Assembly: GCF_023716665.1 (NCBI RefSeq)
Contig: NZ_CP071859.1
Coordinates: 868,001-932,000 of the forward strand
Length of the DNA stretch: 64,000 nucleotides
Reading direction: 5' to 3'
Origin: Vibrio sp. SCSIO 43135
GTDB lineage: Bacteria > Pseudomonadota > Gammaproteobacteria > Enterobacterales > Vibrionaceae
How positions within the stretch are numbered: the first letter of the stretch is position 1; the number at the start of each line of letters is the position of its first letter. The notes under the pieces were generated by a model. That model made no database searches and was not told where the DNA came from. It was given only the letters and a program-made list of their open reading frames with translations. Shown in pieces: positions 35,929-40,055 of the stretch. Made by a program: the position numbers and the translations under genes.

Positions 35929-36081
35929 TTAGCTTCTCCAGCTATTACCAAGTATTAGTGAAACTGCGACTGAGATGCCTAACGCGATCAAGATATTGGG
36001 TAACGAGAAGCCCCAAATAGCGACACAAACTGCAACTGTAACCACTGCCCATAGTGTTGTCTCTAATAACCAAATACCCAT
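35929..36081 (-). CDS. Two-helix small membrane protein, 50 residues
   Basis: This short gene has a perfect AAGGAG (36089-36094) seven bases before its ATG. It encodes two membrane helices: MGIWLLETTLWAVVTVAVCV and, after a short turn with Pro-Asn, ILIALGISVAVSLILG, ending NSWRS. It belongs to no family I recognise. It follows the histidine kinase gene by 75 bases on the same strand. The 18-bp operator found upstream of that kinase operon recurs 44 bases before this start codon, so it is probably a member or target of that two-component regulon. Confidence 0.75.
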   Translation of the reverse strand: MGIWLLETTLWAVVTVAVCVAIWGFSLPNILIALGISVAVSLILGNSWRS

Positions 36082-36125
36082 ACTGGTTCTCCTTATGATT
36101 GATGCGACTAGAGTAACGAATAGGT

Positions 36126-36143
36126 GGTTAACATTTGGTTATC
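36126..36143 (-). promoter_or_regulatory. Tandem operator before the small membrane protein
   Basis: GGTTAAC-ATTT-GGTTATC on the plus strand (its complement faces the small gene) consists of two GGTTA half-sites exactly 11 bp apart. It is the same at every half-site base as the site at 39623-39640. Eleven-base tandem half-sites are the usual target of OmpR/PhoB-type dimers. It lies across the last codons of the kinase gene and the untranslated region, with the ATG 44 bases further on. Confidence 0.7.
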
Positions 36144-36156
36144 TCGGTATGGAAGC

Positions 36157-37449
36157 CTAGATGTCAGATGAACATGGCCCGATAAAATGGACGCTGACAT
36201 TGTAGCGACTGGCTTCTTCAGAGTGAGTGAACTGCCAGCCATTGTTTGCACAAATGCGCTCGATCAATAGTAAACCAATACCGAATGAGGGCTCTGGTGA
36301 AGTTGAGCTTTGATGTTCGGTAGAATTACTGACCGATATTTTATCGCTCGATACAATGATGTGGATATTGCCTTGAGATGAATGTTGGAAAGCATTACGG
36401 ATAAGGTTAGTGATGACTATCTGAACCAAAGTATGGGGTAGGGGCTTGCTTTGCAGCTTCTCTGGGGAATCGATATGGACGGTTAACTCTTTACCTTCTA
36501 TCAAATATTGGTGGTTCGAAACGGTATCTAATAGCAGTGCTTCCATATCAAAAGAGTCTAAATCTAATGGCGTACGCTTCTCTCTACTCATCCAGAGTAG
36601 AGTGTTTATCAGGTTGTGCATGGTTGTGACTGAACGATTGATCCGAGCAATCGCTCTCTGCCCACCTTTACTGAGAGAAGGAGAGAGGCGAGATAGCATT
36701 GCCCCACTAGCTGAAATCGTTGTGACAGGTGTGCGTAACTCATGGCTTGCAGTACGAAGGAAAAACTCTTCCCTCTCTATTGCTGCTTGCTGGTGGCGAA
36801 CGCTGCTGATTAATTGATTGGCAAGGCGCTGCACCTCCGTGTAGCGAAGCTTTTGTAGTGAACCTGTTTCGTTCAAATTCAGATCTTTACTCCATTGAGA
36901 CAACTCTAAAATTGGTTTAGTAATTCGGTATACGAGAATGCGGCTGATTAGAAATATACCCAGCAGTAAGACACCGAGTATTACGAAGGAAGAGTTCAAT
37001 TGGTCAATAGATTCTGGTGGATGTTGCTCTAGTAAATCTGCATAGATCTTTTCATCGTACTGAGAGACCACATACAGGTATTGAGCTTTACTGGACACAT
37101 AGTGCTTAGCCGCATAGAGATAGTGGCCGTATTCATCAGTACTTGGTGATAAATAATTCTCATAGATTTGGTCGTTCGAAAAATTTGCCCAATCAAAAAC
37201 CTTTTGAAACTTGTCTGGTACATCGTCTAGGTGAGTAAACACTTGAAAAGTGTTGGTCTGGGTAACGGCTCCTGTTTCAACAAACTCTGCTTCAGCCTGT
37301 TTTAACTCATAAAGAAAGCCATACTTGGCCGACTCATTGAGCCCGACTTGATAGCTGTGATTGACCATCAAGGCGTAAATAGCGGTTAAAGTGAGTACCA
37401 TTCCGAATAGATATAGATAAACATCCCGCTTGATACTGACTGGTGTCAT
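36157..37449 (-). CDS. Membrane sensor histidine kinase
   Basis: The 430-residue protein has helices at about 11-29 and 154-172 flanking a periplasmic sensor region of about 120 residues. A HAMP-like linker follows, then the phospho-acceptor H236 in FFLRTASHELRTPVTTISAS, the N box IVITNLIRNAFQHSSQG and the G box FGIGLLLIERICANNGW. The sensor part is unlike any I recognise. Its start overlaps the regulator stop by four bases (ATGA), so the pair is translationally coupled. It is the fourth gene of the operon running from 39566 to here. Confidence 0.92.
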   Translation of the reverse strand: MTPVSIKRDVYLYLFGMVLTLTAIYALMVNHSYQVGLNESAKYGFLYELKQAEAEFVETGAVTQTNTFQVFTHLDDVPDKFQKVFDWANFSNDQIYENYLSPSTDEYGHYLYAAKHYVSSKAQYLYVVSQYDEKIYADLLEQHPPESIDQLNSSFVILGVLLLGIFLISRILVYRITKPILELSQWSKDLNLNETGSLQKLRYTEVQRLANQLISSVRHQQAAIEREEFFLRTASHELRTPVTTISASGAMLSRLSPSLSKGGQRAIARINRSVTTMHNLINTLLWMSREKRTPLDLDSFDMEALLLDTVSNHQYLIEGKELTVHIDSPEKLQSKPLPHTLVQIVITNLIRNAFQHSSQGNIHIIVSSDKISVSNSTEHQSSTSPEPSFGIGLLLIERICANNGWQFTHSEEASRYNVSVHFIGPCSSDI

Positions 37450-38123
37450 TGGTTTTCTTCCCTGAATGCAATCCCAACCCCGTGGACGGTTTGGATCAAC
37501 TTGGTGTCAAATGGAGCATCGATAGCTTGGCGAAGCTTAAACAAGTGTACTTTTAGGCTATCTGCATTGGGGACATCTTCTCCCCAGACTGCCTCTTCGA
37601 TTTGAGCTTTGCTGACCACGTTCGGGCTATGTTGCATTAAGCAGACAAGTATTTTCCAGCAGACTGGAGCCAGCCTTATGGTTTGGTTCGCTCGAGAAAC
37701 AAGGTGTTGTTCCAAATCTACACTGACGTCACTGATACTCAACGAAGTAACTGCCCCTTTTCCGCGCCGAGTAAGTGCTAACATACGGACTTTCAGCTCT
37801 TCCATTGCAAATGGCTTAACTAAGTAATCATCAGAACCTACAGAGAATCCAGTGAGCTTATCATCGAGCGTATCTCTTGCGGTGAGCATCAACACAGGAG
37901 TATTTATCCCTTTTTCTCTGAGCTGTTTACAGAAGCGAAACCCATCCATTTTGGGCATGTTAACGTCGGTCAAGATGATATCGTACGGGTGGGACTGTGC
38001 GAGAGTGAGCCCTGCTGAGCCATTGTAAGCAAAATCGAATTCGAACCCATCCAGTTCCATATAATCACTGATGGCTTCGGCGAGATCTTTGTCATCTTCA
38101 ATGAGCAGGGCATTGATTTTCAT
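37446..38123 (-). CDS. OmpR-family response regulator
   Basis: The 225-residue protein has a receiver domain with the acidic pair LLIEDDKDL, phospho-acceptor D53 in IILTDVNMPKMDG, the Thr/Lys switch residues (MLTARDT, DYLVKPFA), and a winged-helix DNA-binding domain from about 125 (VCWKILVCLMQHSPNVVSKA, VHLFKLRQAI). The ATG at 38123 overlaps the hydroxylase stop (ATGA), and the kinase start overlaps its own stop in the same way. It should bind the tandem 11-bp repeats found before the operon and before the small membrane gene. A 14-codon upstream extension is rejected because of the overlap. Confidence 0.94.
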   Translation of the reverse strand: MKINALLIEDDKDLAEAISDYMELDGFEFDFAYNGSAGLTLAQSHPYDIILTDVNMPKMDGFRFCKQLREKGINTPVLMLTARDTLDDKLTGFSVGSDDYLVKPFAMEELKVRMLALTRRGKGAVTSLSISDVSVDLEQHLVSRANQTIRLAPVCWKILVCLMQHSPNVVSKAQIEEAVWGEDVPNADSLKVHLFKLRQAIDAPFDTKLIQTVHGVGIAFREENQ

Positions 38124-39022
38124 CGCTGTTCTTGTTCCTTCATCTGTTTTTGCTGCCAAGCCCAAATAGGGGGCTTAATAAGTAGCTGTAAGCGATACTT
38201 CCAATTAGGCGCGTACCATATCTGTCTTAGTAGCCTGCCATACCCATGAAAGTACACTTTAAGCGGATTAACCGAATTAACGTGAGGGTATATTCCATAT
38301 TTAACCGATTCTTCTTCCTTTGCAAAAGTACCAAACATTCGGTCCCAAATAATCAAGATGCCCGCATAGTTTTTATCGAGGTATTGCTTATTGGTTGCAT
38401 GATGGACTCTATGATGTGACGGTGTGTTGAATATTGCCTCTATGGGTCTAGGCAATTTTTTAACCGTCTCTGTGTGAAGCAGCGTCTGGTAGAGTTGAAC
38501 GAAGGTCTCGCACATCAGAACGACGAAAGGGTTAAAACCAAGTAACACCAATGGGATATGGAAGAAGAATGGGAAGAACCAATCGAGTGGGCCAAATCGG
38601 TACGCCACTGAAATATTAAAGTAAGGTGAGCTGTGGTGTACGGAATGTGTCCCCCATGCAAACCCGTTGCTGTGCAAAAAACGATGCTCCCAGTAATACG
38701 CTAAGTCAGCCAGTACCAAGCAACCCAATATAGTCCAGCCGGTTATCGGCAGTTGAGTAATGCTAAAGTGTTCGTACGCAAAGATAAATGCTCCAACATA
38801 AGCCAAACCAATGACGAATACCGTCGTAAGTAGGAACAACAACGTAACGAAGTTGGTTGCGCTGTCGCCGACCATGTTCCAGCTTAGTTTCTTCTTAATA
38901 GCGTAGCGGACGAGCTCAAACACAAAAACAGCTAGGGCGATAAGTACAAAGTTATCGTCTACCCAAGTTTCGGTAAAAATGATGGTGCTCTCGGTGAACA
39001 CTTGAGACATAAAATCAAACAT
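38120..39022 (-). CDS. Sterol desaturase/fatty acid hydroxylase superfamily membrane protein
   Basis: An integral membrane protein of the di-iron fatty acid hydroxylase superfamily. The histidine ligands are in the expected boxes: WEHRFLHS, GTHSVHHSSPYF and HHRVHHATN near the end, among four or more membrane helices. Members hydroxylate or desaturate lipids, so a membrane lipid is the likely substrate. The ATG at 39022 has GAGG upstream and gives 300 residues; a Met nine codons earlier would overlap the previous gene by 11 bases. It is the second gene of the operon and overlaps the regulator gene by four bases. Confidence 0.88.
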   Translation of the reverse strand: MFDFMSQVFTESTIIFTETWVDDNFVLIALAVFVFELVRYAIKKKLSWNMVGDSATNFVTLLFLLTTVFVIGLAYVGAFIFAYEHFSITQLPITGWTILGCLVLADLAYYWEHRFLHSNGFAWGTHSVHHSSPYFNISVAYRFGPLDWFFPFFFHIPLVLLGFNPFVVLMCETFVQLYQTLLHTETVKKLPRPIEAIFNTPSHHRVHHATNKQYLDKNYAGILIIWDRMFGTFAKEEESVKYGIYPHVNSVNPLKVYFHGYGRLLRQIWYAPNWKYRLQLLIKPPIWAWQQKQMKEQEQR

Positions 39023-39038
39023 GACTGTTTCCTCAAAG

Positions 39039-39566
39039 CTATTGTTCATAGTAGACGCTTACTTCACTGCTGTCCGGTAAGCCGTGCTGATTGAGATAAT
39101 GAACTTCCACCACTGCTGAAATTGGTTGATGGAAGTCGATTTGATGCCAAGCTTGTTCCAACACTGAAGCTGAGTGTTGTCCTTTGGGGAGCAAAACCTG
39201 ACGAGTAGAATCAACGGATAACTGAACAGAAAGTGATTGTTTAGCATCTTGAGCGTAGCCAATGGTGACTTTCGCGTGGGTGAAGCTTTTATCTATTTGC
39301 TGGTATATGACTATCAGTGTATTTACGTCGCTAGGGATAGTGGGGTTGTCGGTATAAAACTGATGCCACAATGCTGGTAGCTCTTGTAAATGAATGGTTT
39401 TACTGACTCCCGTAACAGAGTCTGGTTTTTCGTTATTGAGAGATGAGGTGAGGTTGTTCAAAGCGGTGGCTGGCGCAGTTTCCGCAGTCGCTGGCTGTAG
39501 GGTTACAGCGCTCCATATCACACCAGTAATAAGTATGGTTGTAGTTATTGAGGCAAGTAGTTTCAT
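39039..39566 (-). CDS. Exported protein of unknown function
   Basis: The 175-residue protein has a signal peptide of about 27 residues ending near PATAETA, so it is exported to the periplasm. The mature part has LQELPALWHQFYTDN, VIYQQIDKSFTHAKVTIGY and LLPKGQHSASVLEQAWHQI in that order. That order loosely recalls the GyrI-like effector-binding fold of small-molecule sensors, but this is only an impression and the match is weak. It has GGGAGG before the ATG. As first gene of the hydroxylase-regulator-kinase operon it could be the periplasmic sensing or ligand-carrying partner of the kinase. Confidence 0.7.
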   Translation of the reverse strand: MKLLASITTTILITGVIWSAVTLQPATAETAPATALNNLTSSLNNEKPDSVTGVSKTIHLQELPALWHQFYTDNPTIPSDVNTLIVIYQQIDKSFTHAKVTIGYAQDAKQSLSVQLSVDSTRQVLLPKGQHSASVLEQAWHQIDFHQPISAVVEVHYLNQHGLPDSSEVSVYYEQ

Positions 39567-39622
39567 GCTTCCTCCCTGAACGGTGAGTGATGTTTGTTCA
39601 GGAAAGAGGATAATAGAGTAGG

Positions 39623-39640
39623 GGTTAACAAAAGGTTATC
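39623..39640 (-). promoter_or_regulatory. Tandem operator before the two-component operon
   Basis: GGTTAAC-AAAA-GGTTATC on the plus strand lies 57 bases before the operon's first ATG. Both half-sites are identical to those at 36126-36143 and the 11-bp spacing is the same. Another GTTAAC follows at 39647-39652. A plausible -10, TATTAT, lies on the minus strand seven bases after the operator. Autoregulation by the operon's own OmpR-type regulator is the simplest reading. Confidence 0.7.
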
Positions 39641-39712
39641 AAAGAAGTTAACCCACTAGGCAGTTGAATCAAGGGGTACGGCTGAACTCAGGTAAACCGT
39701 TCAAGTTATCAA

Positions 39713-39964
39713 ATACAAAAAACTCCACGAGCTACTTAGTGGGCTTTTAAATGTGGCGGAGTGCTGGGCTTGCATTCAAGGAGGGATTTGGGCAAATCCC
39801 GTTTAATCCTTTGAAATACGAAAAGGCCCACTAATTTCTTAGCGGGCCTTTCTAAATGTGGCGGAGTGCTGGACTTGCATTCAAGGAGGGATTTGGGCAA
39901 ATCCCGTTTAATCCTTTGAAATACAAAAAAGCCCACTAATTTCTTAGCGGGCTTTTTCTAAATG
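39713..39964 (-). repeat. Tandem repeats carrying copies of the tRNA-Ser 3' end and terminator
   Basis: Downstream of tRNA-Ser two units of 106 and 105 bp (39859-39964 and 39754-39858) are nearly identical, and a third, partial terminator copy lies at about 39713-39748. At each unit boundary the last bases of the tRNA (CTCCGCCA) are repeated, followed by CATTTA, a terminator hairpin and a spacer with the dyad GGGATTTG-CC-CAAATCCC. The two terminator stems differ by a paired change (G-C in one, A-T in the other), so the hairpin has been maintained. This layout resembles the tyrT-linked repeats (Rtt) of E. coli. Confidence 0.85.
39925..39957 (-). terminator. Terminator after tRNA-Ser
   Basis: On the minus strand AAAAAGCCCGCTAA pairs with TTAGTGGGCTTTTTT, followed by a T run; one G-T pair interrupts the stem. 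Copies of it recur in each downstream repeat unit. Confidence 0.88.
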
Positions 39965-40055
39965 TGGCGGAGAGATAGGGATTTGAACCCTAGATACGCT
40001 ATTAACGTATGCCGGTTTTCAAGACCGGTGCTTTCAACCACTCAGCCATCTCTCC
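39965..40055 (-). tRNA. tRNA-Ser (anticodon TGA)
   Basis: The 91-nt minus-strand gene has the acceptor stem GGAGAGA/TCTCTCC, a D-arm, anticodon loop CTTGAAA with anticodon TGA, the long variable arm expected for tRNA-Ser (CATACGTTAATAGCGTA), T-loop GTTCAAATC and an encoded CCA. Confidence 0.97.

Follow-up and report, generated by a model that had tools for sequence, protein, structure and literature searches.

In a 64-kb window of the genome of Vibrio sp. SCSIO 43135 (the whole stretch of 64,000 nucleotides analysed, to which all positions given without a locus name refer), we identified a cluster of five genes on the minus strand, encoding in the order of transcription an exported or membrane-anchored protein of 175 residues (A175), a predicted membrane di-iron hydroxylase (Hyd), a response regulator (RR), a sensor histidine kinase (HK) and a protein of 50 residues (S50), together with two copies of one operator, one before the four-gene operon and one before the S50 gene. 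We consider it fairly probable that the cluster is an autoactivating two-component system with a microprotein loop like that of PhoPQ and MgrB, which would drive envelope or lipid chemistry. RR would bind the 18-bp operators and switch on both the four-gene operon, its own genes included, and the S50 gene; S50 would feed back on HK; A175 would bind an amphiphilic small molecule or lipid, and Hyd would work with it on an envelope lipid as the output in the source species. The gene set, both operators, their spacing from the −10 hexamer, the tracking of the regulator by the operator and the co-inheritance of S50 and HK are read directly from the sequences. The types of component are known (an OmpR-type system, a class II operator, a small regulon member), and what appears to be new is their combination; in agreement with the original prediction made on this DNA, the gene set was not found described in the open-access literature searched, subscription journals being mostly outside that scope. 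The cluster offers a compact, closed regulon: the operator, its promoter spacing and the member genes are all legible in the sequence, and a single reporter strain would be enough to test them.

All five open reading frames (ORFs) were verified on the minus strand, as tightly packed as had been predicted: A175 at 39039..39566, Hyd (300 residues, start picked from the alignment) at 38120..39022, RR (225 residues) at 37446..38123, HK (430 residues, with a periplasmic domain) at 36157..37449, and S50, in which two hydrophobic stretches are recognised by eye, at 35929..36081. The expected ATGA overlaps are present at Hyd/RR (38120-38123) and RR/HK (37446-37449). Operator 1 (39623..39640, minus strand; GATAACC-TTTT-GTTAACC on the coding strand) and operator 2 (36126..36143, minus strand; GATAACC-AAAT-GTTAACC), which precede the operon and the S50 gene, respectively, are exact repeats of the element GGTTAAC-N4-GGTTATC, with half-site starts 11 bp apart. 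The distance of 44 nt between element and S50 start was as predicted, while that to A175 is 56 nt and not 57. At both sites a predicted −10 hexamer lies 10 nt past the operator, at a conserved spacing (TATCCT, 39607..39612, and TACTCT, 36110..36115, both on the minus strand). The element is not distributed at random: the 4.98-Mb genome contains two exact copies, both before genes of the cluster, compared to about 0.04 expected by chance (simple arithmetic on 14 fixed bases). Two copies with one mismatch each fall inside an unrelated long ORF (presumably nrdB and flhA), and when the −10 hexamer was added to the element, with up to one mismatch allowed, the whole genome returned the same two sites and no third regulon site (reversed control, 1). 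When the search was confined to the window and 3 mismatches were allowed, there was a slight excess (9 sites vs 4.0 expected, a number attained by 2 of 100 shuffles).

An ortholog search in 148 genomes of the genus, the source included, gave 21 other genomes with Hyd at 71-84% identity, and the five genes are indeed found together in these relatives, their order being kept in 20 of the 21 loci, if three with defects (L071, L077 and L080, see below) are counted; in L079 (genome G037) A175-Hyd stands alone at the locus. Conserved copies of the operator accompany this synteny in a looser form, GNTNACC-N4-GTTWACC on the coding strand, while the exact 18-mer is rare, being found at L081 only. The alignment of the upstream regions revealed that the direct repeat is kept at both promoters, whereas the flanks have diverged. 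A position weight matrix (PWM) was then trained solely on S50 promoters (17 distinct sites), and each promoter was compared with 200 shuffles. Operator 1 scored 27.6, a value that none of its shuffles reached, and the linked A175 promoters (21 of 21) each beat all 200 of theirs; on this scale the top score over 2896 background windows of 250 bp was 11.5, and seven of them scored at least 8.

To analyse the spacing, the operator was scored with the −10 columns off in 96 promoters, corresponding to 71 distinct sites (28 of S50, 31 of A175, 11 of the radical-SAM target described below and 1 of RR). Dropped from this set were 24 duplicates and the A175 promoter of L099, whose site, found in another scan, lies too near the assumed start; L198, L292 and L293 had no site, and adding them gives 99 promoters with the same 71 sites; in L138, L285, L286 and L295 the site either belongs to an S50 promoter or shows such a promoter a second time, and these were also left aside. 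In 66 of the 71 sites the repeat is followed by TANNNT at a distance of exactly 10 nt, and no other offset from 4 to 18 has it in more than 2. The five exceptions are the A175 promoters of L079 and L201 and the S50 promoters of L099, L101 and L201; in the S50 promoters of L099 and L101 a TA-like hexamer lies one base nearer to the operator. None of the 71 sites matches TTGACA at more than 3 of 6 positions (best matches, 1-3), and a simple sigma-70 (−35/−10) scan detected no promoter at either operator of the window. The 4-bp spacer of the operator is promoter-specific on the coding strand (window 36133-36136 and 39630-39633), starting with AA in 28/28 distinct S50 sites and 9/11 radical-SAM sites, and reading TTTT in 29/31 A175 sites.

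Tandem half-sites about 11 bp apart, placed over the −35 position and at a fixed distance from the −10, are the arrangement of OmpR/PhoB class II promoters. PhoP architecture-I boxes, described as class II in the accessible part of the source (PMC3335776), overlap the −35 and are separated from the −10 downstream by 12 nt, and PhoB promoters combine a direct-repeat operator with a strict operator-core promoter spacing in the portion available of PMC10294691. The geometry found here is of the class-II activator type, as at PhoP architecture-I promoters, and we strongly infer that the neighbouring RR activates both promoters. The binding of RR, a positive rather than a negative effect on transcription, and the feedback are predictions made from the sequences analysed.

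The distribution of the operator was compared with that of the genes in a census of 296 Vibrionaceae genomes (HK at E ≤1e-80, Hyd at E ≤1e-90, lists compared by eye). S50 was present in 38 of them and HK in 39, including all 38; a close Hyd accompanied S50 in 36 of the 38, the two without it being G073 and G084. The strict pattern, operator plus −10, was searched in 27 HK-positive genomes chosen from the 39 and was present in 21 of them (reversed pattern, 0), with 33 of its 37 sites at the promoters of S50, A175, RR or the 94-aa/radical-SAM pair. It was present in 0 of 20 HK-negative genomes of the genus and in 0 of 7 further members not HK-listed either way, with one reversed control hit over all 27 of these. 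Genes that have moved apart often keep their site. In G037, where RR-HK, S50 and A175-Hyd are in three places, both S50 and A175 still have one (17.9 and 8.8, the latter being weak support against the background scale); in G265 A175-Hyd is on another contig with its site kept (15.2), and the RR-HK-S50 set carries one before RR (22.4) and one before S50 (30.2); in G227, in which A175-Hyd is 2 kb off on the opposite strand, A175 scores 17.1 and S50 23.4. In the genomes compared, the operator tracks the regulator and is in most cases retained by relocated target genes. Both promoters share one operator, which is conserved across species together with the regulator, so that the module is very likely autoregulated and controls the small gene separately, as originally proposed.

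S50 is exactly 50 aa long in all 21 aligned sequences, with a mean column identity of 92% (65% for HK, on a differing row set), and an acidic residue, E7, is invariant in its first hydrophobic stretch. In 91 pairs from 14 chosen sequences, synonymous differences (mean pS 0.71) greatly exceed nonsynonymous ones (mean pN 0.135), and therefore the S50 protein itself is under selection. It belongs to no Pfam family and had one unrelated, sub-threshold NCBIfam match. A separate induction of the small gene had been proposed, and the gene has in fact its own operator; in the census, however, S50 goes with the kinase (38/38) and is not simply a separate output. MgrB is a 47-aa member of the PhoP/PhoQ regulon that inhibits PhoQ, according to the accessible part of PMC8404706. 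Its own operator and the co-occurrence with the kinase fit S50 as a regulon member of MgrB type, a putative membership, with a membrane location suggested by the hydrophobic stretches. Because of this analogy with a small PhoP/PhoQ regulon member, S50 would adjust HK activity, with a feedback sign more likely to be negative; we draw an analogy here and make no claim of homology between S50 and MgrB. With such a role, a novel family of microproteins associated with kinases would be expected beyond enterobacteria.

Some observations weigh against this interpretation. In G257 S50 is missing and HK is matched less well (306 bits); the strict pattern is missing from 6 of the 27 HK-positive genomes, three of which (G009, G074 and G295) have GGTTACC-N4-GGTTACC instead. 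No operator can be seen before the unlinked S50 of G084, whose score is attained by 47 of 200 shuffles, and among RR-HK pairs without A175-Hyd in front the RR promoter has a site in L200 but none in L199, L201, L242 and L243, thus autoregulation is not universal. The genomes share ancestry, and co-occurrence counts are not independent events. MgrB consists of one membrane helix with a periplasmic tail, unlike S50 with its two hydrophobic stretches. Moreover, the operator covers the −35 position, where a repressor could also sit, and RR could repress both promoters by blocking polymerase there until a signal arrives. We regard this as improbable: none of the 71 promoters has a recognisable −35, and the sigma-70 scan is empty at both window sites, therefore the promoters should be weak without an activator, and a fixed −10 distance is a need of activators of this family in the accessible parts of PMC3335776 and PMC10294691. 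Much more improbable still is a repeat due to chance or shared descent with no regulatory role, which the position of the operon next to a tRNA-Ser gene and a 105-bp tandem repeat could suggest, since the element is kept while its flanks diverge, is retained at relocated genes and is missing from the 20 HK-negative genomes searched.

A different doubt concerns S50, which, in the same autoactivated regulon, could be an output acting on the membrane or on another enzyme. Like the other targets it has its own operator, and in G037 and G084 it lies on a different contig from HK, as would be possible for an output. We consider this explanation possible, but unlikely: with the exception of G257, S50 is found in every HK-positive genome, even in the two with no close Hyd, while the 94-aa target is patchy (14 strong matches in 296 genomes), and S50 is better conserved than the kinase (with the caveat on row sets given above). 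The autoactivated system with feedback of S50 on HK is the reading that we prefer.

RR contains Response_reg and Trans_reg_C, a receiver and a winged-helix domain, and HK contains HisKA, which places the pair in the OmpR/PhoB family of two-component systems. In the window HK, HATPase_c is below the Pfam cut-off (16.3 vs 26.4 bits), but it is found at E ≤1 in all 14 HK members (best 7.5e-5), and the kinase core fold matches. The fold search made for the HK sensor was filled by matches to the kinase core, and no fold, new or known, was assigned to the sensor. An alignment of 14 rows (13 of 20 relative kinases were taken, leaving out six near-duplicates and the broken L077) indicated that the N-terminus with the first helix is narrowly the most conserved part (0.84), followed by HisKA (0.81), the second helix (0.77), the periplasmic part (0.68) and the ATPase (0.58). 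As for signal and substrate, the system may sense an envelope or lipid state and Hyd may act on a lipid, as originally proposed, which is suggested only by the families to which the proteins belong.

Identity of RR with PhoP, PhoB or QseB was ruled out by the NCBIfam equivalog cut-offs (110/336, 147/296 and 138/345 bits, respectively). The likeness to PhoPQ-MgrB of enterobacteria consists, according to the accessible parts of the sources, in an OmpR-family regulator, a box of direct repeats that precedes the −10 by roughly one helical turn, class II promoters, that of phoP itself among them (PMC3335776), and a membrane protein of about 50 aa in the regulon (PMC8404706). By contrast, the regulon described here has two or three transcription units, and PhoQ does not figure among the 25 model matches listed for HK. 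The pho box, beyond the low PhoB score of RR, has a half-site differing from that of the operator found here. In QseBC with YgiW upstream, an exported small protein, a regulator and a kinase are in one operon, as in our cluster; on the other hand, HK reaches 47 of 475 bits for QseC, Hyd and the separate small gene are additional here, and YgiW has an OB fold, as compared to the GyrI-like fold predicted for A175.

The original description of A175 as an exported protein can be revised to an exported protein with a predicted GyrI-like ligand-binding fold (residues about 43-175), since the fold search indicated a duplicated strand-helix-strand-strand fold of GyrI-like type. Two residues of the exported domain, W140 and E154, are invariant. 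PF06445 matched 9 of 55 A175 members at E ≤1 (best 1.6e-6), but not the A175 of the window; neither A175 and S50 of the window nor the 94-aa protein of relatives has a Pfam or NCBIfam name at cut-off. The A175 alignments used 20 of the 21 relatives, without L071 (142-aa frame), and 54 of 56 loci, without L092 (47-aa frame) and L094 (no start). The predicted fold is shared with effector-binding proteins such as Cass2, BrlR-C, BmrR and SbmC; unlike them, A175 is exported (by eye), has no DNA-binding part and is paired with a membrane hydroxylase. Hyd matches PF04116 (FA_hydroxylase) with E 1.5e-28, and its histidine clusters HX3H, HX2HH and HHX2HH, invariant in 22 sequences, are those of the FA_hydroxylase superfamily. 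With this domain and motifs it resembles the ornithine-lipid hydroxylase OlsE, which was ruled out as its identity (69.3 bits against an NCBIfam equivalog cut-off of 475), and no plausible relative of solved structure was found by sequence (best E 0.01, a nanobody). The exported GyrI-like protein and the membrane hydroxylase deserve attention as a pair with a joint substrate to identify.

The operator heads the operon containing A175 and Hyd, but the pair is more widespread and elsewhere often lies beside a TetR gene. A scan of named genomes gave 139 Hyd relatives, and the analysis was confined to the best 80 loci, reaching 6 kb each way (some contigs were shorter): 27 have A175, Hyd and TetR, 15 Hyd and TetR, 18 the RR-HK-S50 set (on the opposite strand in L138), 11 A175 and Hyd only and 9 Hyd only. 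TetR was called by a tblastn match to one family member passing the Pfam TetR_N cut-off. In none of these best 80 loci do TetR and the RR-HK-S50 set occur together (42 vs 18). Of the 42 TetR genes, 25 are located upstream in the same orientation, 13 are divergent from a nearby Hyd, and 4 (L129, L133, L139 and L148) are about 4-5 kb off and may be unrelated. The operator was found upstream of TetR in 0/42 and upstream of A175 in 0/27 of these lineages, and it is missing in 10 of the 11 A175-Hyd loci with neither regulator nearby; the eleventh, L097, carries it, and belongs to G265, which has RR-HK-S50 elsewhere. A175-Hyd is probably a wider and older unit than its linkage to the two-component system, and its regulator would have been exchanged between TetR and two-component types, in a direction that these lineages suggest. 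These loci offer natural cases of regulator exchange and of target genes relocating with their operator retained.

In sister species the regulon is predicted to have a further unit, formed by a 94-aa membrane-like protein and a radical-SAM enzyme, which operator sites precede in G283 and G069. The enzyme has PF04055 above cut-off and a B12-binding-like N-terminus (PF02310, below cut-off), and is nearest to the BchE and HpnJ models, far under their cut-offs. Its gene (E ≤1e-60) was found in 15 of the 38 S50-positive genomes and in 0 of 20 HK-negative ones; it is not in G257 or in the genome of the window. Of the 296 genomes, 15 have a match to the 94-aa gene; 14 matches are strong and come from HK-positive genomes, the fifteenth being a 29% match within a long frame. 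A site scoring at least 8 lies within 700 bp in 15 of 17 radical-SAM loci, in three of which (L285, L286 and L295) the genes form a joined run and the site is that of its S50 promoter; it is weak in L296 (8.2), and L292 and L293 are without one. A more speculative and doubtful picture would be that an undescribed system with a double-helix microprotein captured the older A175-Hyd from TetR, and that in sister species one sensor switches a membrane component between di-iron and radical-SAM chemistry, with a GyrI-like periplasmic readout. Here the radical-SAM enzyme may be of the B12-dependent BchE/HpnJ type, setting oxygen-sensitive against oxygen-dependent di-iron chemistry.

Other sites were observed in relatives. 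L244 and L245, from G257 and G265 of the Photobacterium group, contain a more distant RR-HK pair with no linked S50, and a variant of the site, AATAACC-N4-GATAAC[CT], is present at the RR promoter of this pair. At L277:5319-5352 (G077) there is a site like the A175 promoter of the V. splendidus group with no A175 downstream, a possible relic, and at L278:10568-10601 (G283) a good operator with −10 precedes DUF1800 and DUF1501 genes, a possible extra target.

The cluster lies on a 3.2-Mb replicon in the source genome; in relatives assembled in at most 4 contigs it is on a replicon of 1.5-2.1 Mb in 14 of 15 and on one of 3.8 Mb in G003. Named carriers include Vibrio coralliilyticus, V. splendidus, V. 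fortis, V. maritimus and V. tapetis. All five genes are also found in a Marinomonas (L096) and an uncultured Ferrimonas (L099), and therefore horizontal movement of the cluster is suggested. As to the defective loci, the HK match is partial in L077 and the RR match in L080; A175 is displaced in L071:8259-9496 (G140), cut to the 142-aa frame, and lies about 0.8 kb away from Hyd. In the V. maritimus loci L080, L101 and L102, RR matches only from residue 68, which hints at a broken frame or an assembly error. In the window the cluster adjoins the tRNA-Ser gene (39965-40055), the tRNA alone attaining an Rfam gathering score near the cluster. Abutting this gene, at 39711-39972, a 105-bp unit is repeated 2.5 times, possibly a flank of the tRNA that was duplicated where an insertion took place.

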